This document shows, piece by piece, positions 5,886 to 16,586 of a stretch of DNA of 36,111 nt; position 1 is the stretch's first letter; each line of letters begins with the position of its first letter. The notes below the pieces were generated by a model that had not been told where the DNA came from, made no database searches, and saw only the letters and a list, made by a program, of their open reading frames with translations. The stretch spans positions 1 to 36,111 of the forward strand of contig JACRBX010000148.1 in assembly GCA_016219225.1 (NCBI GenBank), in the 5' to 3' direction. The translations under genes were made by a program, and so were the position numbers. This DNA is from Deltaproteobacteria bacterium. GTDB lineage: Bacteria > Desulfobacterota > RBG-13-43-22.

Positions 5886-5982
5886 AGGGTCTCTTTTCAA
5901 ACAACTAAAGTGTTACAATTTTTAGAATAAGCCAAGTAAGAATCAGTTGCATAAACAGAAAAAAACGAAGGAGGAGAAAAAA

Positions 5983-6816
5983 ATGAAAAGAATTTTGATG
6001 CTTTTTTTATCGGTTCTGTTACTTATCACCCCTGTAATCGGATCGGCGGCAGAAATCAAGTTCGGGTTGCTTCCGAGGCTTCCGGAAAAACAACTACTTG
6101 AAATGTTTACCCCTTTAGCCCAGTACCTTGAAAAGGAAACAGCTATGAAGGTTAATTTAATCATCCCCAAGGATTTTGAGACCTATACCAAACAAGCCAT
6201 AGCGGGCGATTTTGATATCGGATTCACCAATCCCAATATTTATATCGTGGTCAAAAAAGAGGTGCCCCAGGTGGAACCGCTGGCCTTGGCCTCTGAGCCC
6301 GGGGTGGGTACCAAATTGAAAGGGGTCTTCTTCGTTGTTAAGGAGAGTCCTATCAAGACGATAAAAGAGCTTAAAGGAAAGAAGGTCAGTTTTGTTGATC
6401 CGGGCTCGGCGGCCGGCTATGTGGCCCAGATGCTCGCACTCCAGAAGGCCGGTATCCGGAAGGAGGAACTATCCATAAGCTTTGCCGGGAAACCGCCAAA
6501 GGTCGGTGAGGCCGTCCGGGATGGAAAAGTTGACGCCGGCGGAATGCCGGAATCGGTCTTTAAGAAACTCCCCTTCGAATTCATGCTGAAGGAGATAGGA
6601 AAGACGATTGACCTTCCCAACTGGCCGGTCCATACCACCAAGAAGACCGACAAAAAGGTAGCCTCAAAAATAAAAGACGCCTTCCTGAAACTGAAACCAA
6701 ATTCGACCCAGGCAGAAAATGCGCTGAACAAAGCCAACCTGGAGGGGTTTGTTGCTACCAGTGATAAGGACTTTGACCCCATGAGGGAAGCGGCCAAGGC
6801 CGCCGGTACTTTTTGA
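5983..6816 (+). CDS. PhnD-like periplasmic substrate-binding protein
   Basis: Predicted secreted binding protein of 277 residues. A Sec signal peptide occupies about residues 1-23 (MKRILMLFLSVLLLITPVIG, cleavage near SAA-E). The mature protein has the PhnD/TIGR01098 layout: an opening IKFGLLPR strand, the DFDIGFTNPNIY segment, IKTIKELKGKKVSFVDPGSA, and a DAGGMPES segment. The family binds phosphate, phosphite, phosphonate and sometimes other oxyanions or organic anions outside the cell. The start at 5983 is set by a strong AAGGAGGAG; an upstream TTG would spoil the signal peptide. No ABC ATPase or ABC permease gene is nearby. Instead an SLC13/DASS permease follows after 33 bases, so the two are probably co-transcribed. 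Confidence 0.85.
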   Translation: MKRILMLFLSVLLLITPVIGSAAEIKFGLLPRLPEKQLLEMFTPLAQYLEKETAMKVNLIIPKDFETYTKQAIAGDFDIGFTNPNIYIVVKKEVPQVEPLALASEPGVGTKLKGVFFVVKESPIKTIKELKGKKVSFVDPGSAAGYVAQMLALQKAGIRKEELSISFAGKPPKVGEAVRDGKVDAGGMPESVFKKLPFEFMLKEIGKTIDLPNWPVHTTKKTDKKVASKIKDAFLKLKPNSTQAENALNKANLEGFVATSDKDFDPMREAAKAAGTF

Positions 6817-6849
6817 TCGGATAAATTAACGGGTAAAAAGGAGGATTAG

Positions 6850-8343
6850 ATGGAAAAAAAGCATCCGAAACAAGAGACCTATCTGGAAGAGAAGATGAAG
6901 GCCATTGAAGAGGCAGAAGAAAAAGAAGTTGCCCAGCCTAAAAAAGCCATCATCGGCCTGATTATCGCCTTTGCGATTCTCTTCATAATTCATTTCAGCC
7001 CAACCCTTCCGGGCCTAAGGCCCACTTCCCAGTCAGTGCTGGCCGTTTTCCTCTGGTTTATCACGATTATGGTAACGGACGCCCTGCCAAAGGCCATCGT
7101 GGGGTTTGCCTCGCCCATGCTGGTAGTCTTGTTTGCCGGGATCAAACCGGGTGTGGCCTTCAAGGCCTTTTCCACCGATATATTTTTTCTGGCCGGCGGA
7201 GCCTTTGTCATTGCCGGGATTATGATGGGAACACCTCTCGGGAAAAGGATCGCCCTGAAAATAGTCACGATGATGAAATCAAGCCGGGTGACAAAAATCC
7301 AGACTGGCCTTGGACTGGCAGACGTAGCGGTCGGCTCTGTTTTGCCTACGGTCTCTGAAACGGCCCTTTTCTTGCCGGTTACCAAGGCCATCGGAACCTT
7401 AATGAATGGCAAAGAACATTTGCCGGAAGTTAAAAGGATCAACACCGCCTTGCTGCTCCAGACTCCGGGCTTGACCCCCCTTTTTACCGGGGTGCTTATC
7501 CTGACCAGCCATTTCCCGAATATCATCCTGGCCGGTCAACTTCAGGCTGAAGGGATTTATATTTCCTGGGTCAAGTGGTTCTGGCTTAATCTGCCTCTCT
7601 GGGGGCTCCTCCCTATCATGTTTTGGTACGTTTTTACCTATTTCAAGCTGTGGAAACTCGAAATACCGGGCGCCGAAAAAGAGATACCGAAACTGAAGAA
7701 AGAATTAGGCAAGATCAGTTTTGGAGAGATCTGGGCGGTTATCTGTATCCTGATCGGGCTGGCCCTCTGGATAACAGAAGAGTGGCATCAAATAAAATCA
7801 GGCATGGTCGCCTTGATAACGGCGACTCTGTTATTTATGCCCTGGGGAAAGATCAAATTTGCAGAAGTGAATAAACATATCATGTGGGACACCTGGGTTT
7901 TGCTTGGAGGGGCCATTTCTCTCGGCACCATTCTTTATGATGTAGGAACGGTAACCTGGCTGGCCAATATTATCGTAGAGCCCGTAAGGGATCTCGGTTT
8001 GCCCACCTTTCTGATGATGTTTGTCCTGGCCGGTGCGCTGCACATTGCCAGGGCCGGGATAGTCAGCGCCGTGGCCATGGGTGCCGCCTTTATTCCCTTA
8101 TTGATCGGAATGGCTAAGACCCTTAACCTCGGGGTATTGCCCTTCTCTTTGGTTTTGACCAACTGCCTGAGTTATGCCTTTTTTCTGCCCATATCCATCA
8201 CCGCCTTTCTCATTGCCTGGGGCGCTTCAGGGGCATCCGGGTGGACGATAATCCGGTTCGGGGCCATCCTTTCCATAATAGCCAATGTCTATGTTCTGGT
8301 TGTCCAGACAGCCTGGCTGGCCTTGATCGGATATCCTTTGTAA
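6850..8343 (+). CDS. SLC13/DASS family anion permease
   Basis: Integral membrane transporter of 497 residues with about 11-12 hydrophobic segments after a charged cytoplasmic N-terminus of roughly 35 residues. It matches the divalent-anion:Na+ symporter (SLC13/DASS, ArsB/NhaD superfamily) layout, including two re-entrant hairpin regions: PTVSETALFLPVTK near residue 172 and NCLSYAFFLPISITAF near residue 438. In the well-studied di- and tricarboxylate carriers these hairpins carry SNT motifs; here they read SET and LSY. The ion or substrate site is therefore probably altered. Sulfate, C4-dicarboxylate or another anion are all possible. A good ribosome site (AAAAAGGAGG) lies upstream. It sits between the binding-protein gene and the second Crp/Fnr gene. 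Confidence 0.85.
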   Translation: MEKKHPKQETYLEEKMKAIEEAEEKEVAQPKKAIIGLIIAFAILFIIHFSPTLPGLRPTSQSVLAVFLWFITIMVTDALPKAIVGFASPMLVVLFAGIKPGVAFKAFSTDIFFLAGGAFVIAGIMMGTPLGKRIALKIVTMMKSSRVTKIQTGLGLADVAVGSVLPTVSETALFLPVTKAIGTLMNGKEHLPEVKRINTALLLQTPGLTPLFTGVLILTSHFPNIILAGQLQAEGIYISWVKWFWLNLPLWGLLPIMFWYVFTYFKLWKLEIPGAEKEIPKLKKELGKISFGEIWAVICILIGLALWITEEWHQIKSGMVALITATLLFMPWGKIKFAEVNKHIMWDTWVLLGGAISLGTILYDVGTVTWLANIIVEPVRDLGLPTFLMMFVLAGALHIARAGIVSAVAMGAAFIPLLIGMAKTLNLGVLPFSLVLTNCLSYAFFLPISITAFLIAWGASGASGWTIIRFGAILSIIANVYVLVVQTAWLALIGYPL

Positions 8344-8391
8344 TTTTTCAGCTTCCCTTTATTCCCTCCTGCCAAGGGAGGAGAACCTTGA

Positions 8392-8418
8392 CACCCTCTC
8401 CCATCGTGGGAGAGGGTG
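8392..8418. repeat. CCCTCTCCC-type perfect hairpin
   Basis: CACCCTCTCCCA (8392-8403) and TGGGAGAGGGTG (8407-8418) form a perfect 12-bp stem with a 3-base loop, 48 bases after the permease stop. No U-run follows, so it is not a classical intrinsic terminator, although it could block 3' exonucleases. A related hairpin lies at 30622-30643. A smaller stem (CCCTCC/GGGAGG) is just upstream at about 8365-8382. Confidence 0.6.
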
Positions 8419-8495
8419 CGGGTCGGGTGGGTGCAGTTCTATGATGAAGGATTGCCGGGTCTTTCATTGGAGGACATTTTGTTAGGCGGAATTAC

Positions 8496-9194
8496 ATGGA
8501 AAAACGTTGGTACCTTGATAACCTCGATTTTATCAAAGAATTAACGGAAGACCAGAGAACCTTTTTTTATAAAAACGCTTATAAGAAAAGTTATCCCAAA
8601 AATACGGTTATCTTTTCCCCTGGGGACACAGGTAATCTTATCTATTACGTGGAAAGCGGCCGGGTTAAAATTTATAATTTGTCCCCGGGAGGCCGGGAAA
8701 TTATTTATTGGTTCTGCAACCCCAAGGACCTGTTCGGTCTGGCGGAACTTTGTGGGGGCGAGATGAGGGCTGTCTTCGCTGAAGCCGTTGAAGATACCCA
8801 GACACTGGCCATCAATAAAATGAATTTCGTAGAACTCATCAGTAAAAACCCTGAAATTTCCCTGTTGATCATGAGATTATACGGCAGCCGAATCCGTCAG
8901 GCCCATGAAACCATCAGGGACCTGGTGGCCTGCGACGTCTCCTCCCGTTTAGCCCAATTGCTCATCAAACTCGGCCAGATCAGCGGTGAACCGACGGAAG
9001 GCCGGATCCTGCTGAAGGACAAATTAACCCACCAGGAAATGGCGAATATGATCGGGGCAACCAGGACAACGGTAACGGAGATCATCAATCAATTTAAAAG
9101 GGAAGGATTTGTTAAATACGAGGCCGGTAAGATCACCATTCTGAACCTGGAAAAGCTTACCGAACTCATCGATTCATCCGGTTTTATTTTTTAA
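8496..9194 (+). CDS. Crp/Fnr family transcriptional regulator (second copy)
   Basis: A 232-residue regulator paralogous to the one at 4492. The N-terminal effector barrel includes NLIYYVESGRVKIYN and DLFGLAELC; a long dimerisation helix passes through LVACDVSSRLAQLLIKL, and the winged helix reads LTHQEMANMIGATRTTVTEI. Its recognition helix ATRTTVTE keeps one Arg but lacks the second Arg of CRP and the SR pair of FNR, and differs from the first copy, so the two probably see different operators. No FNR-type N-terminal cysteine cluster is visible. Its position just upstream of the AprA-like gene (98-base gap) makes that cluster the likely target. Start ATG follows AGGCGG. Confidence 0.87.
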   Translation: MEKRWYLDNLDFIKELTEDQRTFFYKNAYKKSYPKNTVIFSPGDTGNLIYYVESGRVKIYNLSPGGREIIYWFCNPKDLFGLAELCGGEMRAVFAEAVEDTQTLAINKMNFVELISKNPEISLLIMRLYGSRIRQAHETIRDLVACDVSSRLAQLLIKLGQISGEPTEGRILLKDKLTHQEMANMIGATRTTVTEIINQFKREGFVKYEAGKITILNLEKLTELIDSSGFIF

Positions 9195-9292
9195 AAAAAT
9201 TAAAAATGTCGTCCAGTCAACATCTTTTATCTTCTTTTACTGATAAATATAGAAAAAATACTGACCAACTTTTTTCAGCAAGGAGGGAATAA

Positions 9293-11044
9293 ATGGCAGA
9301 GAAAACTTTTAAAAGCCTGGAAGAGATCCCCACCGAGGTAATCGAAACCGATTTACTGGTTGTGGGGGGAGGTAATGCCGGCTGCTTTGCAGCTATTGAG
9401 GCCAAAAAACTTAACCCTGATCTGCGCGTCACCATTATGGAAAAGGCCCATATCAGCAGGAGCGGCGCTACCGCAGCCGGGATGGATGCCATTAATACGT
9501 ATATCCCCGAGGGAAAGACCCCGGAGGATTTGGTGCGCTGGAGCCGTTCCCAGGTGGGCGGTGGACCCATTCGGGAAGACCTGGCCTTAAGCAATGCCCA
9601 GAACCTCAATGAAGCCGTGGAGGATCTGGAAAAGTGGGGTCTGCCCATCATCCGGGATGAAGAGGGCAAGCCCCAATATCGCGGAGGCTGGGATATTTCC
9701 ATCCACGGCGAACAACTCAAACCCATCATGGCCGAAAAGGCCATGGAGATGGGAGCGGAAGTCTACAATCGTGTGGTGGCCACCAACTTGCTGATGGACG
9801 GTGATAGATGCGTCGGGGCCATGGGTTTTGGGGTCAAAGACGGCAAGTTTTACGTCTTTCGGGCCAAGGCCACGGTGGTTTCAACCGGTGGGGCCTGCGG
9901 CCTGTATAAATCGTACACCAGTGATGCCACCAGCGCCCACCACCAAACCTGGATGTGTCCATTTAATGTCGGTTCGGGATATGCCGTGGGGATTCGCCAG
10001 GGCGCGGAAATGACTTCCCTGGAGCAGAGATGGGTAGCCACCCGGACCAAAGATCACTGCGGACCGGTGGATACGATTTCGGTAGGGTACAAATCCAATA
10101 TCATCAACGCCAAAGGCGAACGCATTTTGCAGAAACACTATGCCCACCTGGGCGGGGATAAGGCCCCGCGATATATTCGTGCCAATGCCCCCATGGAAGA
10201 ATGGCTGGCCGGAAGAGGGCCTACCTATGCCGATACCACCCACTTGTCACCGGAGGATGTTAGAGACCTCAAGATAGATTATCTCAATGAGCGCCCCTCC
10301 TTCGTCCTCTTTTTAGCCAGCCGGGGGCAGGATATCTCCAAGGATCCCATTGAAATCTACGGAAGCGATCCCTATGTAGTGGGCGGGCATACCCAAAGCG
10401 GCTACTGGGTGGATATTAAAAGGATGACGACGATTCCCGGTCTGTTCGGGGCCGGCGAAACAGCAGGAGGCACCCCTAACAAGTTTGTGGGGGGGTGCGC
10501 CGCAGAAGGAAAGCTGGCGGCCCGGGGTGCGGTAGAATACCTGAGTACCCTTTCCCTGCCTGAATTGGATGGACAGCAGGTGGAACAGGAGAAAGAGCGG
10601 GTATTTGCACCTTTACTGCGAGGACCTGAGTTTGACGGGGTCTCCCCTCTGGAAATGGAAGAACGGATGCAACGACTGATGGATGAGTATGCCGGGGGCA
10701 CCTCCCAGTTTTACCGGACCAATGAAGAAAGGCTGGATTTCGCCCTAAAGCATCTGAAAATGTTGCACGATCAGGTTGAATACCTCTATGCCAAAAACCT
10801 TCATGACCTGATGAATGCCCATGAGGTCATCGACCGTCTGGATGTGGCTGAAGTGCTGGTCCATCATCTGAAATTCCGCAAGGAAACCCGCTGGAAGGGT
10901 TGGCAGACCCGGTCGGATTATCCCGAGATGGACCCGAAATTCGACTGTTTCGTGGAGAGTCGCCGGAATCAGGAAACCGGTGAAATTGAAACGTTTACCA
11001 GGCCCTATGAACAAATTGTTCCGGGGGATCGTTATCAACCCTAA
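9293..11044 (+). CDS. AprA-like flavoprotein (APS reductase alpha/fumarate reductase superfamily)
   Basis: FAD flavoprotein of 583 residues. The dinucleotide-binding fold is at the N-terminus (VVGGGNAG at residues 23-30, then RSGATAAGMDAIN near 58). The middle holds RTKDHCGPV at residues 251-259, which corresponds to the RxKDxxGPV block I associate with dissimilatory APS reductase AprA. Further on are GGHTQSGYW with His366 and a C-terminal FAD segment (GLFGAGETAGGTPNKFVGG). True AprA is longer, about 640-670 residues, so this is a shorter, divergent relative. The electron partner is the AprB-like protein encoded 31 bases downstream. The reaction is uncertain: reduction or oxidation of APS, or a fumarate-reductase-like reaction on another acid. 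The ATG follows a strong AAGGAGGG. Confidence 0.8.
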   Translation: MAEKTFKSLEEIPTEVIETDLLVVGGGNAGCFAAIEAKKLNPDLRVTIMEKAHISRSGATAAGMDAINTYIPEGKTPEDLVRWSRSQVGGGPIREDLALSNAQNLNEAVEDLEKWGLPIIRDEEGKPQYRGGWDISIHGEQLKPIMAEKAMEMGAEVYNRVVATNLLMDGDRCVGAMGFGVKDGKFYVFRAKATVVSTGGACGLYKSYTSDATSAHHQTWMCPFNVGSGYAVGIRQGAEMTSLEQRWVATRTKDHCGPVDTISVGYKSNIINAKGERILQKHYAHLGGDKAPRYIRANAPMEEWLAGRGPTYADTTHLSPEDVRDLKIDYLNERPSFVLFLASRGQDISKDPIEIYGSDPYVVGGHTQSGYWVDIKRMTTIPGLFGAGETAGGTPNKFVGGCAAEGKLAARGAVEYLSTLSLPELDGQQVEQEKERVFAPLLRGPEFDGVSPLEMEERMQRLMDEYAGGTSQFYRTNEERLDFALKHLKMLHDQVEYLYAKNLHDLMNAHEVIDRLDVAEVLVHHLKFRKETRWKGWQTRSDYPEMDPKFDCFVESRRNQETGEIETFTRPYEQIVPGDRYQP

Positions 11045-11075
11045 GACTAACCAAGTGTTCAAAGGAGGAAAAAAT

Positions 11076-11402
11076 ATGCCACCGAAAATTAATAAGGAAA
11101 AATGTGACGGCTGCAAGGCCGAGGAAGAGACCTTATGCGAACAAATCTGTCCGGGTGATCTGATGGCCCTGGGGGAAAACATGAAGGCCTATTGCCGCCA
11201 ACCGCGCGATTGCTGGGACTGCATGTCCTGTACCAAGGTCTGCCCTGTGGGGGCCATTGAGACCCGGATTCCCTACCAGTTGGGATACCACAAGGCCCAA
11301 CTGATCCCCATGATGGGCACCGACAATATTACCTGGACCTGTATCGATATCCATGGAAACGTAGAACGATTTCGCTATAAAAACAGGGTGGAACCGGAAT
11401 AA
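11076..11402 (+). CDS. AprB-like iron-sulfur subunit (two [4Fe-4S])
   Basis: A 108-residue electron-transfer subunit. Cluster I ligands are in KCDGCKAEEETLCEQICPGD and cluster II ligands in CWDCMSCTKVCPVGAIE, the two-cluster arrangement of AprB. What makes it AprB-like rather than a generic ferredoxin is the C-terminal tail, MMGTDNITWTCID and NVERFRYKNR, which matches the beta-strand tail of APS reductase beta subunits as I recall it. It should pass electrons to or from the FAD of the preceding protein. The frame is open upstream, but AAAGGAGGAA just before ATG 11076 and the conserved PPKINKEKC beginning decide the start. The stop overlaps the next start by one base (TAATG), indicating tight translational coupling. 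Confidence 0.85.
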   Translation: MPPKINKEKCDGCKAEEETLCEQICPGDLMALGENMKAYCRQPRDCWDCMSCTKVCPVGAIETRIPYQLGYHKAQLIPMMGTDNITWTCIDIHGNVERFRYKNRVEPE

Positions 11403-13798
11403 TGGATAAAGTCGTACCGAAAATCGGAATATTCATCCGGGATCAAGGCGGCCGACTGGCCCAGGCCATCGACCTGGCGGCATTGGTCCAAAAGATCGGC
11501 AAGGCCAAAAATGTGGGTCGTTGTGAGGTCATAGAGGATCTGTGGGCCCCGGCCTTCCTGGATTCTTTAAAAAATGGGCTGGGGGAAAAACAGGTGGATC
11601 GCATCCTGTGGGTGGGACGTTTCACCCCCTATCAAATGAAAAGCCTCAAAGACGAACTGGCTTCAGCCGGGCTGAATCCTTGCCTTCATGGCTGGTGCGA
11701 CCTGGAAGAACAGGGGGTCTGTTTAATGGAAACAGATCCGAAAATCCGGGCCGCCAAGGCCTTGATCCTGGTCCAGATGGCCCTGGCCCGGGTCCGCCTG
11801 CTGGAATCGTTGGAACCTCTGGAACTTCCGGCTTCGGAAGCCATTCTGATTATCGGAGCCGGAGTGGCCGGTCTTCAGGCCGCTGAATCTCTGGCCGGGC
11901 TTGGCAAGCAGGTCATTCTGGTAGAAAAGGAAAGCGGGGTAGGCGGAAAGGTGGCCCTGCTTTCCCGTTTCTATCCCCGGATCTGCGACCCCCGCTGTGG
12001 ATTGGAATTTATCCTTCAAAGGCTTGGCGACGCAGGTCGCCTGCAACTGATCACGCTGGCCGAGGTAGCCGCCATCGAGGGGGGCCCGGGAAATTTCATC
12101 GCCACCGTTCAAAAACAACCCCGTTTTGTTTTGGAGAAACGCTGCAACGGCTGCGGAAAATGTCAGACGGTTTGCCCGGTGGAGGTCCAAGAACCTTTTC
12201 CTTTGATGCCGGATGCGACACCCCACCTACCGGGTTTCGAAGCTTCCCGGCAAAAAACCCGGAAGGCCATTCACCCGGCTTCCCCCATGGCCTTTCCGGC
12301 CGCTTTCGTCATTGAACGGCAGCACTGTCCCCCGGAGTGCCGGGAATGCGAAAAGGCCTGTCCGGCCGGGGCTGTCGAATTGGATCAATCAGCGTCAGAG
12401 GAACAGCTCCGGGTGGGGGCCGTGCTCATTACCACCGGCTGGGACCCCTATCCCCTGTCCAACGTGGAAGAATATGGCTACGGCCGTCTAACCAACGTCA
12501 TCAGCAACCTGGAAATGGAACAACTCCTTTCCCCGGACAACCGCCCCCCTACCCCTCTGGCAAAATTTCCTTTAAACAGTCTAAAAGAAGTGGGGTTCAT
12601 CCAGTGTGCCGGAAGCCGGGACGAAAGACACTTAAATTATTGTTCTTCGGTTTGCTGCTCGGTTACCTTAAAGCAAATCTTTTATTTTAAAGAATTGGTC
12701 CCGGAGGCCAAGTGTTATGTCTTCTACCAACATATTCGTACCCCGGGCTTCGAAGAGGATCTTTATCGCAAGGTCCGGGAATCAGGAGATGTCACCTTTG
12801 TCCGTGACCGGCCGGCCCGGGTGGAAGCCGACCAAAATTCAGGGAAGTTGAATATAACCGTCCTGGACCCCCTGCTTGATAAAAAGATTGCAATCAACCT
12901 GGACCTGCTTGTTTTGGCCGGGGGGATGTGCCCTTCCAAAGGCTCGCAGAAAATGGCTCAGACCTTCAACCTTCCTCAAAATCAATATCACTTTTTTGAA
13001 TCCCATCGACAATGCCATCCCGAGGAAAGCCAAAGGACCGGCATTTATACCGGAGGAAGCTGCCGGGAGCCGATGAATGTAGCCCAATCCATCGAATCCA
13101 GTCAGCGGTCGGCCCTGGAGGCCCTGAAATTTATGGGCGGTACGGTCCTGATCGAACCTTATTATCCGGTGGTCAATAAAACCAAGTGCGATCAGTGCAA
13201 ACGCTGCATGGAAGAATGTCCCTTTGGAAGTTTCGTCTTTGATGAAAAAAATTTCCCTTCTCCGGATCTGGCCAAATGTCGGCAGTGCGGGAATTGCATG
13301 GGTATCTGCCCTCTGGCCGTCATATCCTTACGTAACAACACCATCAAACAGATGGCGGTCCAGATCGAGGCGATCAATGCTTCCTTTATGGGCAAGGGCG
13401 AGCCGGTCATTCTGGCCCTCTTGTGCGAAAATGATGCCTATAAGGCCGCCCAATCGGCCGTAAACCAGGGTTTGCCGGTCCCGCCCAATGTCATCTTCAT
13501 TAAAGTGTCTTGCGCCGGTTCCATAAACAATGCCTTAATCGCCGACGCCCTTTCTTCGGGGATTGACGGGGTATTGATCGGCGGTTGTAAAGACGACCAG
13601 TGTCATTATGTCAAAGGGAACCAACTGGTCCAGAAACGCAGTGGGGATTTGAGCGATAAATTAAAAACCATGATGATCGAACCCGAACGGGTCCGTTTCG
13701 TGGGTCTCGAAATAAGAGATTCGCAACACTATGTGGATGTGCTTGATGCCTATATCCAGGACCTAAAAAAGATGGGGCCGAATCCGTTTAAGATTTAA
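11402..13798 (+). CDS. HdrA-MvhD-like fusion (QmoB-like) electron-transfer flavoprotein
   Basis: A 798-residue protein. Residues 1-140 match the HdrA N-terminal domain in layout, but its usual cysteines are replaced (IFIRDQGGRL and WVGRFTP where CxCG and CSP-type motifs are expected). An FAD fold follows (IIGAGVAGLQAAESL near residue 150), then CDPRCG near 196, a first ferredoxin (CNGCGKCQTVCP near 250), CPPECRECEKACPAG near 310, and the HdrA block QCAGSRD...YCSSVCC near 402-420. Two further [4Fe-4S] motifs lie at about 596-650 (CDQCKRCMEECP, CRQCGNCMGICP). The C-terminal MvhD-like domain has SCAGSI and GCKDDQCHYVKGN. HdrA/Qmo proteins route electrons between a flavin and multiple clusters and can bifurcate or confurcate. 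Here it would link the AprAB-like pair to the Hdr subunits encoded downstream. Confidence 0.85.
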   Translation: MDKVVPKIGIFIRDQGGRLAQAIDLAALVQKIGKAKNVGRCEVIEDLWAPAFLDSLKNGLGEKQVDRILWVGRFTPYQMKSLKDELASAGLNPCLHGWCDLEEQGVCLMETDPKIRAAKALILVQMALARVRLLESLEPLELPASEAILIIGAGVAGLQAAESLAGLGKQVILVEKESGVGGKVALLSRFYPRICDPRCGLEFILQRLGDAGRLQLITLAEVAAIEGGPGNFIATVQKQPRFVLEKRCNGCGKCQTVCPVEVQEPFPLMPDATPHLPGFEASRQKTRKAIHPASPMAFPAAFVIERQHCPPECRECEKACPAGAVELDQSASEEQLRVGAVLITTGWDPYPLSNVEEYGYGRLTNVISNLEMEQLLSPDNRPPTPLAKFPLNSLKEVGFIQCAGSRDERHLNYCSSVCCSVTLKQIFYFKELVPEAKCYVFYQHIRTPGFEEDLYRKVRESGDVTFVRDRPARVEADQNSGKLNITVLDPLLDKKIAINLDLLVLAGGMCPSKGSQKMAQTFNLPQNQYHFFESHRQCHPEESQRTGIYTGGSCREPMNVAQSIESSQRSALEALKFMGGTVLIEPYYPVVNKTKCDQCKRCMEECPFGSFVFDEKNFPSPDLAKCRQCGNCMGICPLAVISLRNNTIKQMAVQIEAINASFMGKGEPVILALLCENDAYKAAQSAVNQGLPVPPNVIFIKVSCAGSINNALIADALSSGIDGVLIGGCKDDQCHYVKGNQLVQKRSGDLSDKLKTMMIEPERVRFVGLEIRDSQHYVDVLDAYIQDLKKMGPNPFKI

Positions 13799-13852: not shown

Positions 13853-13918
13853 GAGGCACGAGGCTATTGGCGAATAAAAGACCATAAACCCGTTTTACAT
13901 TGCCCATCGCCCATTGCC
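13853..13918. repeat. Dispersed GCCCATCGCCC-type repeat (copy B), inside the operon
   Basis: About 66 bases here are homologous in inverted orientation to 21523-21590: both share AAACGGGTTTATGG, TTATTCGC and ATAGCCTCGTGCCT or their complements. The repeat lies between the HdrA-like and membrane-subunit genes and ends 10 bases before the ATG at 13929. That leaves no Shine-Dalgarno for the downstream gene. Confidence 0.65.
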
Positions 13919-13928
13919 TGACAAGTTT

Positions 13929-15683
13929 ATGTTTTTTACAATCAGTTTATATACGGCTCTGACCATTTTTGCCATAGGTCTCCTTTATAAGGGATCGACC
14001 TGGTTTCGCTACGGTTTTGATCCGGCGCTTAAAGAATTCTCGCCCACAAGAAGGGTTTATGCGGCCATCCGGGGAATCTTTCTAACCCTTTTCAGCCCGA
14101 AGATCCTGACTCTTTTCAAGGTATTTGTTCTGGAGGTCGTCCTGCAGAAGAGAATCCTTAAGGAGAGTCGGCTGCGCTGGTGGATGCACCAGCTCATCTA
14201 TGGCGGGTTTATCCTGCTGCTGCTCATGCACGCCCTGGATAAGGTCGTCACCGCTTCTTTCTTTAAGGAGTATTACCCCACCCTGAATCCGTTCCTGTTT
14301 TTGAGAAACCTGTTTGGGGGCATGATACTCTTTGGGGTGGGGCTGGCCGTCTACCGGCGCTTTCTAATAAAATCCCCACGTCTGCAAAACAGTCCCATGG
14401 ATGTTTATGCCATCTTCATCCTGGTCTTCATCATTATATCGGGCTTTTTATTAGAGGGGATAAAAATAACCTCTTACACCCGTTACCAGGAAATGGTGAA
14501 GGAATATGCCGGTATTGACGACGAAAAGGCATTGAAGTCCCTGGAAATGGTCTGGGTCAAAGAGTACGGCATGGTTTCCCACAAACTTAAAGAGCCCTTT
14601 GAGGAAGAAGCCCTCATAAAGGGACGGGTGATTAATGAAAGTTGCCTGTCCTGTCATTCCCGGCCCCAGTGGGCCTTTCTGGGGTTTGGCGCGTCCAGGG
14701 TCATGACACCCATTGCGCCCGGTTTAGACCGGGCCGGTTTGCCTAACCTGCTCTGGCATCTTCACTTTCTGGCCTGTTTCGTGGGCCTGGCTTATCTGCC
14801 CTTCAGTAAAATGATTCATATCCTGACCGGCCCCTTAAGTTTGCTGGCCAATGCGGTCATGGATCAGCGGACATCGGATCCGGCTAATTGGGTTACCAAA
14901 CAAATGATAGAACTGGATGCCTGTACCCATTGCGGCGCCTGCACCCAGCGCTGTGCCGTCGGTATTGTTTATGAAGCCATGCCCAACAGGAATATCCTTC
15001 CTTCCGAAAAGATGGCTTCCCTCAAATCCTTGACGGCCGGGGAAAATATCACACCGCAAGACACCCGAAGGATTCAGGAAGGTCTCTGCCTGTGTACCAA
15101 TTGCCTGCGCTGCACAGGGGTATGTCCTGTTGGAATCAATCTCCATGAATTATGGGTCAGCGCCAGGGAGGCCCTGCTTCAAAAAGGGTATCCGGAACCG
15201 CTGATCCTGTCCCCTCTTTCCCTGTACCGGGGGCTCATGCGTCCCGGGCTGGAGTCGGGACAATACCAAAAACCCATTGCCTGGTCTCAAGAAGCCCTTT
15301 CAATAGAATTTAATAAAGGATCTCAAGGGGAAATGATCCTTAAACCCCACAGGGATTACACCCTTAAAACCAGGCTGCACCAGGCTGTCCAAAGCCAGAC
15401 CTTCTCCTTTTGCTATAATTGTAAAACCTGTACCAACGCCTGCCCGGTTATGGACGTTTATGATAAACCCCAAGAGGCCCTGGGCCTCCTTCCCCATCAG
15501 ATCATGCAGGGATTGTCCTGGGGATTGACTGATCTGGTCATGCGTTCCAGGATGTTGTGGGTTTGCCTGGGGTGCTATCGCTGCCAGGAGCAATGTCCGC
15601 AGGGTGTTCAGATTACCGATGTGTTTTATCAATTAAAAAACCTGGCCATTAAACAGGTTAAGAGCCGATTAAATGCCGGGTAA
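13929..15683 (+). CDS. Membrane HdrE/HdrC-like fusion with a c-type haem motif (QmoC-related)
   Basis: A 584-residue membrane protein. The first half is NarI/HdrE-like, with predicted helices near residues 4-24, 86-105, 122-141, 158-177 and 280-300 and several histidines suited to haem b. Between helices 4 and 5 is a loop of about 100 residues with CLSCH at 239-243, a c-type haem motif. With the Fe-S half inside, five helices put this loop outside, where haem c is attached. The cytoplasmic C-terminal half has two [4Fe-4S] motifs (CTHCGACTQRCAVG, CTNCLRCTGVCPVG), then an HdrC-like pair (CYNCKTCTNACPV and CLGCYRCQEQCPQG). It should exchange electrons between quinone or periplasmic carriers and the soluble Hdr subunits. 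The start is poorly marked: ATG 13929 or TTG 13914, neither with a ribosome site. Confidence 0.82.
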   Translation: MFFTISLYTALTIFAIGLLYKGSTWFRYGFDPALKEFSPTRRVYAAIRGIFLTLFSPKILTLFKVFVLEVVLQKRILKESRLRWWMHQLIYGGFILLLLMHALDKVVTASFFKEYYPTLNPFLFLRNLFGGMILFGVGLAVYRRFLIKSPRLQNSPMDVYAIFILVFIIISGFLLEGIKITSYTRYQEMVKEYAGIDDEKALKSLEMVWVKEYGMVSHKLKEPFEEEALIKGRVINESCLSCHSRPQWAFLGFGASRVMTPIAPGLDRAGLPNLLWHLHFLACFVGLAYLPFSKMIHILTGPLSLLANAVMDQRTSDPANWVTKQMIELDACTHCGACTQRCAVGIVYEAMPNRNILPSEKMASLKSLTAGENITPQDTRRIQEGLCLCTNCLRCTGVCPVGINLHELWVSAREALLQKGYPEPLILSPLSLYRGLMRPGLESGQYQKPIAWSQEALSIEFNKGSQGEMILKPHRDYTLKTRLHQAVQSQTFSFCYNCKTCTNACPVMDVYDKPQEALGLLPHQIMQGLSWGLTDLVMRSRMLWVCLGCYRCQEQCPQGVQITDVFYQLKNLAIKQVKSRLNAG

Positions 15684-15716: not shown

Positions 15717-16586
15717 ATGAAGGATTTTGCCTTATTCCGGTGTTGCCCCACAGCCGTCTTTCTTAAGCAATACGAAACCTCCACGGAGGCCGTGCTGAGA
15801 AAATTGGGGGTTTCATTCTCGGATATCCGGGAGTTTAGCTGTTGCGGTTATCCCTTGAAGAATTTTGATTTTAAGGCCTACCTCCTGGCTTCAGCCCGGA
15901 ACCATGCCCTGGCTGAAAAAAACGGGAGTCCTATCCTGACCTTCTGCAACTGCTGTTTTAACAGCCTCAAGCAGGCCCGGCACCATCTAAACCGGGATGA
16001 AGTCTTAAGGGAAGAAATCAATAAAACGCTGGGGAAAGAGGGACTGGGCTATGAACAGGGGGTGGAAGTCAAACACCTCTTCGAGGTTCTTCTGGAAGAC
16101 ATCGGTCTTGAGCACATCAGGGCCCGGGTGATCAAGACCTTTAAAGGCCTGAAAATAGCCACCCACTATGGTTGCCACCTGCTACGTCCAAGCCAGATCG
16201 TTTGTTTTGATAAAGCCATGAACCCTTCCAAATTCGATCAACTCGTGGAAGTCACCGGTGCCGAAAGCATACCCTGGAGATTAAAGTTGGAATGTTGCGG
16301 CTCCCCATTATTGGGTATCGATGACGATCTTTCCCTGGACTTAACCCGAAAAAAAATACTTGACGCCGCCCAGTCCGGGGCCGATCATCTCTGCAGCGCC
16401 TGTGTTTATTGCCAAATCCAATTCGACCGGGTTCAAGAAAGGCTAATATCCGACCGGTCTTTCCATCCCCTTCCTTCCATACTTTATACCCAGCTTTTGG
16501 GGTTGAGCCTCGGAATTAGCGAGGAAGATCTTGGGATCAACCTCAATGCCCTGGACCTATCCGGAATGGTAGCCTTTTTGTCTTAA
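15717..16586 (+). CDS. HdrB-like subunit with two complete CCG domains
   Basis: A 289-residue protein of the heterodisulfide reductase B type. Two CCG modules are complete. Module 1 has Cys9-Cys10, Cys42-Cys43 (FSCCGYP) and Cys77-x-Cys79-Cys80. Module 2 has HYGC, then CCG after 39 residues (LECCGSP), then CSAC after 31 residues. In HdrB these bind two noncubane [4Fe-4S] clusters that split disulfides, so this subunit may be catalytic and not merely an electron relay. It follows the membrane subunit by 33 bases, behind GGAG, and ends the + strand cluster; the convergent D-2-hydroxyacid dehydrogenase stop lies 13 bases on. QmoABC complexes lack HdrB, although some Gram-positive sulfate reducers use HdrBC beside QmoAB. 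Confidence 0.85.
   Translation: MKDFALFRCCPTAVFLKQYETSTEAVLRKLGVSFSDIREFSCCGYPLKNFDFKAYLLASARNHALAEKNGSPILTFCNCCFNSLKQARHHLNRDEVLREEINKTLGKEGLGYEQGVEVKHLFEVLLEDIGLEHIRARVIKTFKGLKIATHYGCHLLRPSQIVCFDKAMNPSKFDQLVEVTGAESIPWRLKLECCGSPLLGIDDDLSLDLTRKKILDAAQSGADHLCSACVYCQIQFDRVQERLISDRSFHPLPSILYTQLLGLSLGISEEDLGINLNALDLSGMVAFLS

Follow-up and report, generated by a model that had tools for sequence, protein, structure and literature searches.

For sulfate reducers and syntrophs, a central energy question is by what path electrons travel across the membrane that separates periplasmic cytochromes from cytoplasmic Hdr-type enzymes. The known connections, Hmc, Tmc, DsrMKJOP and Qrc, rely on separate cytochrome subunits or on the quinone pool; DsrM works with the c-type haems of a separate subunit, DsrJ. 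The nearest solved relative of the protein described below is EtfD, in which five transmembrane (TM) helices are followed, on the cytoplasmic side, by Fe-S and CCG domains and a single haem b, with His78 and His241 as ligands, lies 7 Å from the nearest Fe-S cluster (PMC13083937). The HdrF-type fusions of Desulfobacterium autotrophicum are of the same EtfD type (PMC2702500). The closest published idea concerns a multi-haem analogue in HotSeep-1, where HdrA together with a haem-c/CCG protein (AMM42179-AMM42180), forming an HdrA/CCG complex with a haem-c-binding protein, was proposed to take electrons from cytochromes c and hand them on to DsrC or ferredoxin; in the passages of that paper that deal with this complex, a single protein binds the haems c and contains the CCG domain, and a loop motif is not described (Murali et al. 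2023, PMC10553843). Searches of the open-access literature on haem-c HdrE/QmoC proteins found no account of a haem-c loop with a single haem.

The window analysed here, which is the whole stretch of 36,111 nucleotides, carries a gene for a membrane protein with a putative loop of this kind (Table 1). The open reading frame extends from 13914 to 15683, and its first ATG, at 13929, was preferred over the TTG at 13914, since the aligned homologues begin at the same ATG. In Pfam, the predicted product matches Nitrate_red_gam (NarI-type) and Fer4 domains, the latter with 4Fe-4S sites in two pairs, and the AlphaFold2 model has five TM helices, with TM4 at residues 156-181 and TM5 at residues 271-292. 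The four Fe-S motifs reported by the first-pass annotation are present, but they are arranged as two dicluster domains, and the constant partner of the protein is a CCG protein, HdrB. All eight cysteines of the first dicluster domain are kept in the aligned members, except for C395, which is lost in a few, and the C-terminal 4Fe-4S pair is closest to HdrC.

Table 1 Features of the putative haem-c protein and of its neighbourhood in the window
Feature	Position	Strand	Basis
AprA-like flavoprotein	9293..11044	+	Closest solved relative is PAPS reductase 8a8o, from a methanogen
AprB-like ferredoxin subunit, start uncertain	10980..11402	+	-
HdrA with fused MvhD/FlpD domain	11402..13798	+	Domain searches
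Membrane/Fe-S protein, HdrE-like with two dicluster domains and haem-c loop, 584 aa	13929..15683	+	ORF, Pfam, homologue alignment
TM2 histidines H87 (inner haem b) and H101 (outer haem b), putative ligands	14187..14231	+	55/55 sequences
Extracytoplasmic loop TM4-TM5, residues 182-270	14472..14738	+	AlphaFold2 helices; few positive charges, mean net charge -6
Met189, invariant loop residue, candidate sixth ligand of haem c	14493..14495	+	55/55 sequences; ligation inferred
CLSCH, C239-H243, putative c-type haem attachment motif	14643..14657	+	CxxCH in 54/54 homologues; loops match c-type cytochromes
TM5 histidines H279 (outer haem b) and H297 (inner haem b), putative ligands	14763..14819	+	Conservation; EtfD alignment
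First [4Fe-4S] dicluster domain, cytoplasmic (C332..C342, C389..C399)	14922..15125	+	Pfam, alignment
Second [4Fe-4S] dicluster domain, HdrC-like (C495..C505, C546..C556)	15411..15596	+	Likeness to HdrC of solved Hdr complexes
HdrB-like protein, two CCG domains (CCG E=9e-19), constant family neighbour	15717..16586	+	Pfam; neighbourhoods

The sequence CLSCH at residues 239-243 of this HdrE/HdrC-like membrane subunit was confirmed from the reading frame; the interval first given for it, 14640-14660, contains the motif but exceeds its true span, 14643-14657, by one codon on either side. Its placement in a loop between helices 4 and 5 also stood, and the length of that loop, earlier put at about 100 residues, is 89 residues by the AlphaFold2 helices. 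Homologues were searched for among 99 relatives and then among 395 genomes of the same phylum, and family members were found in 54 of the 395 (about 14%), although some of the matches cover only part of the protein. Fifty-four homologous reading frames were taken, full-length or nearly so and all including the loop, which gives 55 sequences with the window protein. The homologues in one of the alignments are 38-84% identical to the latter, and every one of the 54 carries CxxCH at the same alignment position, while the two residues between the cysteines occur in 22 combinations across the 55 sequences. Such complete retention of the motif with freely variable intervening residues means that CxxCH is not a chance occurrence, and it is the pattern expected of a haem site, where only the two cysteines and the histidine matter. 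The insertion noticed in the window is thus real, but it is a family-defining feature with members in about one-seventh of the sampled phylum genomes, and not a peculiarity of one protein. W25, H87, H101, M189, G232, H279 and H297 are invariant in all 55 sequences.

Ordinary proteins of this kind had been assumed to carry haem b only, and the comparison agreed with this: CxxCH occurred at the loop position, or elsewhere in the membrane part, in none of 30 other NarI-domain loci of related genomes, and in the Fe-S part in one, the reading frame chosen for one of these loci (L138) being probably the wrong one. When a quick tree was drawn from the membrane domain without the loop columns, the CxxCH proteins clustered together (support 87); their neighbours there were the EtfD-type proteins, with DsrM and NarI lying apart. 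A pattern search of the named genomes returned one locus only, on a contig of the sister species, and the plasmid records gave no match.

The nature of the motif was examined further by means of the loop itself. A loop profile compared with the PDB had c-type cytochromes as its top matches (the haem subunit of flavocytochrome c, E=6e-5; the bc1 cytochrome c; CcoP of cbb3), the similarity spanning D..LL..G..L....C..CH, and 37 of the 54 single loops matched Pfam Cytochrome_CBB3 weakly (E<=1). The genome also has two strong PF01578 matches, which are cytochrome c assembly proteins. At the same time, the window's own loop taken alone matched no cytochrome family in Pfam. Modelled alone with AlphaFold2, it forms four helices, the third of which is closed by CxxCH; Foldseek found no match for this model at E<1, a class I cytochrome c fold included, so that the loop would be at most the CxxCH helix of such a fold. 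Both of these results could be taken to mean that CxxCH forms a disulfide, binds a metal or belongs to a cytoplasmic loop, as could the second CxxCH that 5 of the 54 members have within the cytoplasmic Fe-S region, which is plainly not a haem site. Against this stand the cytochrome matches of the loop profile, the position of the loop outside the membrane (see below) and the strict C-x-x-C-H with free xx in every member, and we regard a role other than haem binding as very improbable. As far as sequence tests go, conservation and profile matches bear out the first-pass assignment of CLSCH as a putative c-type haem site. M189 would then be the sole invariant loop residue outside the motif able to serve as the sixth ligand.

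Three lines of evidence agree in placing the CxxCH loop on the extracytoplasmic side. The content of K+R per 100 residues is 14.9 in loop 1-2 and 28.1 in loop 3-4, compared with 3.4 in loop 2-3 and 8.6 in loop 4-5, as the positive-inside pattern would have it. The best fold match of the membrane protein is EtfD (9ojn), with its five TM helices and cytoplasmic Fe-S part. Finally, in four relatives from another group of the phylum (L099, L100, L101 and L118), seven CxxCH motifs are fused directly before TM1; because haems c must be outside, TM1 of these proteins begins on the outer side, and a count of five helices would then bring the TM4-TM5 loop to that side as well. The outward-facing loop predicted by the first-pass annotation is accordingly what each approach to the topology indicates, and neither of the two refuting outcomes named there, a cytoplasmic loop or close homologues without CxxCH, was borne out.

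The histidines of the membrane domain suggest what lies beneath this loop. The alignment pairs His78/His241 of EtfD with H87/H297, H87 being common to the EtfD type. H101, at the same time, is present in 55 of 55 family members versus none of 13 relatives (10 EtfD-type and 3 seven-haem proteins), and CxxCH follows the same all-or-none distribution, so that the putative extra haem b and the putative loop haem c co-occur. We propose that the loop holds one covalent c-type haem at the outer face of the cytoplasmic membrane, and that the five-helix NarI-like domain binds two b-type haems, an outer one between H101 and H279 and an inner one between H87 and H297. Electrons would then pass along haem c, outer haem b, inner haem b, the four [4Fe-4S] clusters and HdrB, and we consider it probable that these elements form a continuous transmembrane electron wire. 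A periplasmic cytochrome c would be the redox partner at the outer end of the wire, probably alongside the menaquinone pool, which NarI and EtfD use; the inner end would serve HdrB at its thiol/disulfide site and also HdrA where that protein is present. The gene for HdrB follows the family gene wherever the contig reaches far enough, and HdrA often adjoins.

The direct route from periplasmic cytochrome c to the cytoplasm, as the first-pass annotation had it, is in this light one candidate partner and one direction among several; menaquinol, or both, may equally be the partner. It is possible, if on the whole unlikely, that haem c is real but internal, an accessory that relays electrons or tunes potential beside an outer quinone site, in an enzyme that resembles EtfD or QmoC and acts as a menaquinone:HdrB oxidoreductase. 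In EtfD, the nearest solved relative, menaquinone is reduced close to the haem b (PMC13083937). The neighbourhood of most family members contains no cytochrome c gene, a multi-haem cytochrome gene in particular being absent beside most of them, and the CxxCH domain is small and, in the model, would sit directly above TM5. However, the menaquinone of EtfD is 4-5 Å from its single haem b, whereas here the second haem b (H101/H279) is probably further out, towards haem c; moreover, a related lineage fuses seven c haems to the same membrane domain and has a six-haem cytochrome gene adjoining, which points to exchange with cytochromes.

The wire could also work in the opposite direction, with cytoplasmic thiols or an oxidatively working Apr-like enzyme delivering electrons through HdrB and haem c to periplasmic or extracellular acceptors, a possibility that we hold only tentatively. 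Compared with the cytochromes c3 of sulfate reducers, which have bis-His ligation, a haem with His/Met ligation tends to have a higher potential; the candidate ligation by M189 would thus suggest a fairly high potential, with which inward flow sits uneasily. One paralogue has a DUF1641 gene in its vicinity as well as one for a pyridine nucleotide-disulphide oxidoreductase-like protein. On the other side, DsrA is encoded in the host genome, and a further contig carries a second AprA-like protein, both of which would suit a sulfate reducer.

The paralogue just mentioned (L045, 12376-14320) is a putative haem-c protein whose surroundings are possibly sulfide-linked. Another (L048, 10722-14022), in the single-contig genome G018, has as its neighbours a ferredoxin protein of NapG/NapH-like type and two further proteins with no match in Pfam. 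As to the multi-haem relatives, L099 (5044-8078) encodes a 721-aa protein whose N-terminal membrane part is cytochrome b-like and which also contains seven CxxCH motifs and a NarI-like 5-TM domain, and L100, L101 and L118 are like it; in all four, the loop motif is absent, the Fe-S part is a separate double-dicluster gene with HdrB, and a six-haem cytochrome gene adjoins. In L022, at least 11 CxxCH motifs are fused before a NarI-like domain, and an HdrD-like protein that has CCG motifs comes next; this is probably another cytochrome-linked Hdr.

Compared with the described systems, the window protein shares with EtfD/EMO/HdrF (DUF224) the NarI-like 5-TM domain, the inner haem b pair and the succession of cytoplasmic [4Fe-4S] dicluster and CCG chemistry. 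In those proteins, however, CCG is in the same chain and there is a single haem b, whereas here CCG belongs to a separate protein, HdrB, and four haem-b histidines are present; the family also has an extra dicluster domain, H101 and the haem-c loop, and H101 and CxxCH were absent in the 10 EtfD-type proteins examined. With QmoC and HdrE/HdrC, it has in common a diheme HdrE-like membrane part and an HdrC-like Fe-S domain, but it differs in the putative haem c, in the extra dicluster domain and in a domain order unlike that of QmoC. It failed the curated models of both QmoC (NF038018, 72.1 bits against a cut-off of 300) and HdrC (TIGR03290, 72.8 bits against 160). A plain QmoC of an Apr-Qmo operon was rejected as an identification, since the qmoC cut-off is missed by far and the Apr-like module occurs elsewhere without the haem-c protein. 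DsrM and NarI are similar in their two haems b with four histidines on two TM helices and differ in having no CxxCH loop in the loci examined. Judged by these shared modules, the window protein is one that would work as a NarI/EtfD/Hdr-type membrane oxidoreductase, with the separate HdrB, H101 and the haem loop setting it apart from EtfD.

Upstream of the haem-c gene, the AprA-like, AprB-like and HdrA-MvhD proteins form, together with a DASS-type transporter, a PhnD-type binding protein and a CRP regulator, a conserved module at 5947-13798. In 16 other sampled genomes, the AprA-like protein has counterparts of 72-96% identity, accompanied by the AprB-like protein, the transporter, the CRP regulator and often HdrA; in the stretches of those genomes that were examined, the haem-c protein was absent beside the module, except in the sister species, so that the module adjoins the haem-c protein and HdrB pair in one genus only. 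The 130-bp gap upstream of the haem-c gene is replaced in the sister species by about 500 bp of unrelated, partly masked sequence. A single fixed operon of Apr, HdrA, HdrEC and HdrB in the window is unsupported, because this gap between the gene groups is not conserved.

Contig C80 of the same genome encodes another AprA-like protein, which we take to be the ordinary AprA and with which the window AprA-like protein shares 37% identity; DsrA is also encoded in this genome, and Sat was seen only as a fragment at a contig end. The window AprA-like protein scored 610.6 with PRK06854, over the cut-off of 557, and 394.9 with TIGR02061, under the cut-off of 641.75. Gln145 of the A. fulgidus AprA, an APS-contacting residue (PMC10322725), corresponds in the alignment to Asp134, and by this comparison the predicted APS site is not canonical. 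Of the route to Hdr and Apr proteins suggested earlier, the putative HdrB link has a constant neighbour gene behind it, while the Apr link is weak, given this site, the unconserved gap and a module usually found without the haem-c protein. A link between haem c and Apr is possible in this genus and would be outside the general function of the family.

If the Hdr membrane subunit itself contains the outer haem, as proposed for a family present in about 14% of the sampled phylum genomes, the question of how electrons cross the membrane would come down to one protein and two cysteines. More speculatively, such proteins may represent a widespread class, so far undescribed, of transmembrane cytochrome c:thiol/disulfide oxidoreductases that work independently of quinone. 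The built-in outer haem would then give electrons from the periplasm or from outside the cell direct access to HdrB/HdrA and flavin-based bifurcation, with the multi-haem version serving extracellular exchange. If haem c is bound, direct passage of electrons between cytochromes outside and the cell interior could follow, in an overlooked protein family of sulfate-reducing bacteria and their relatives.
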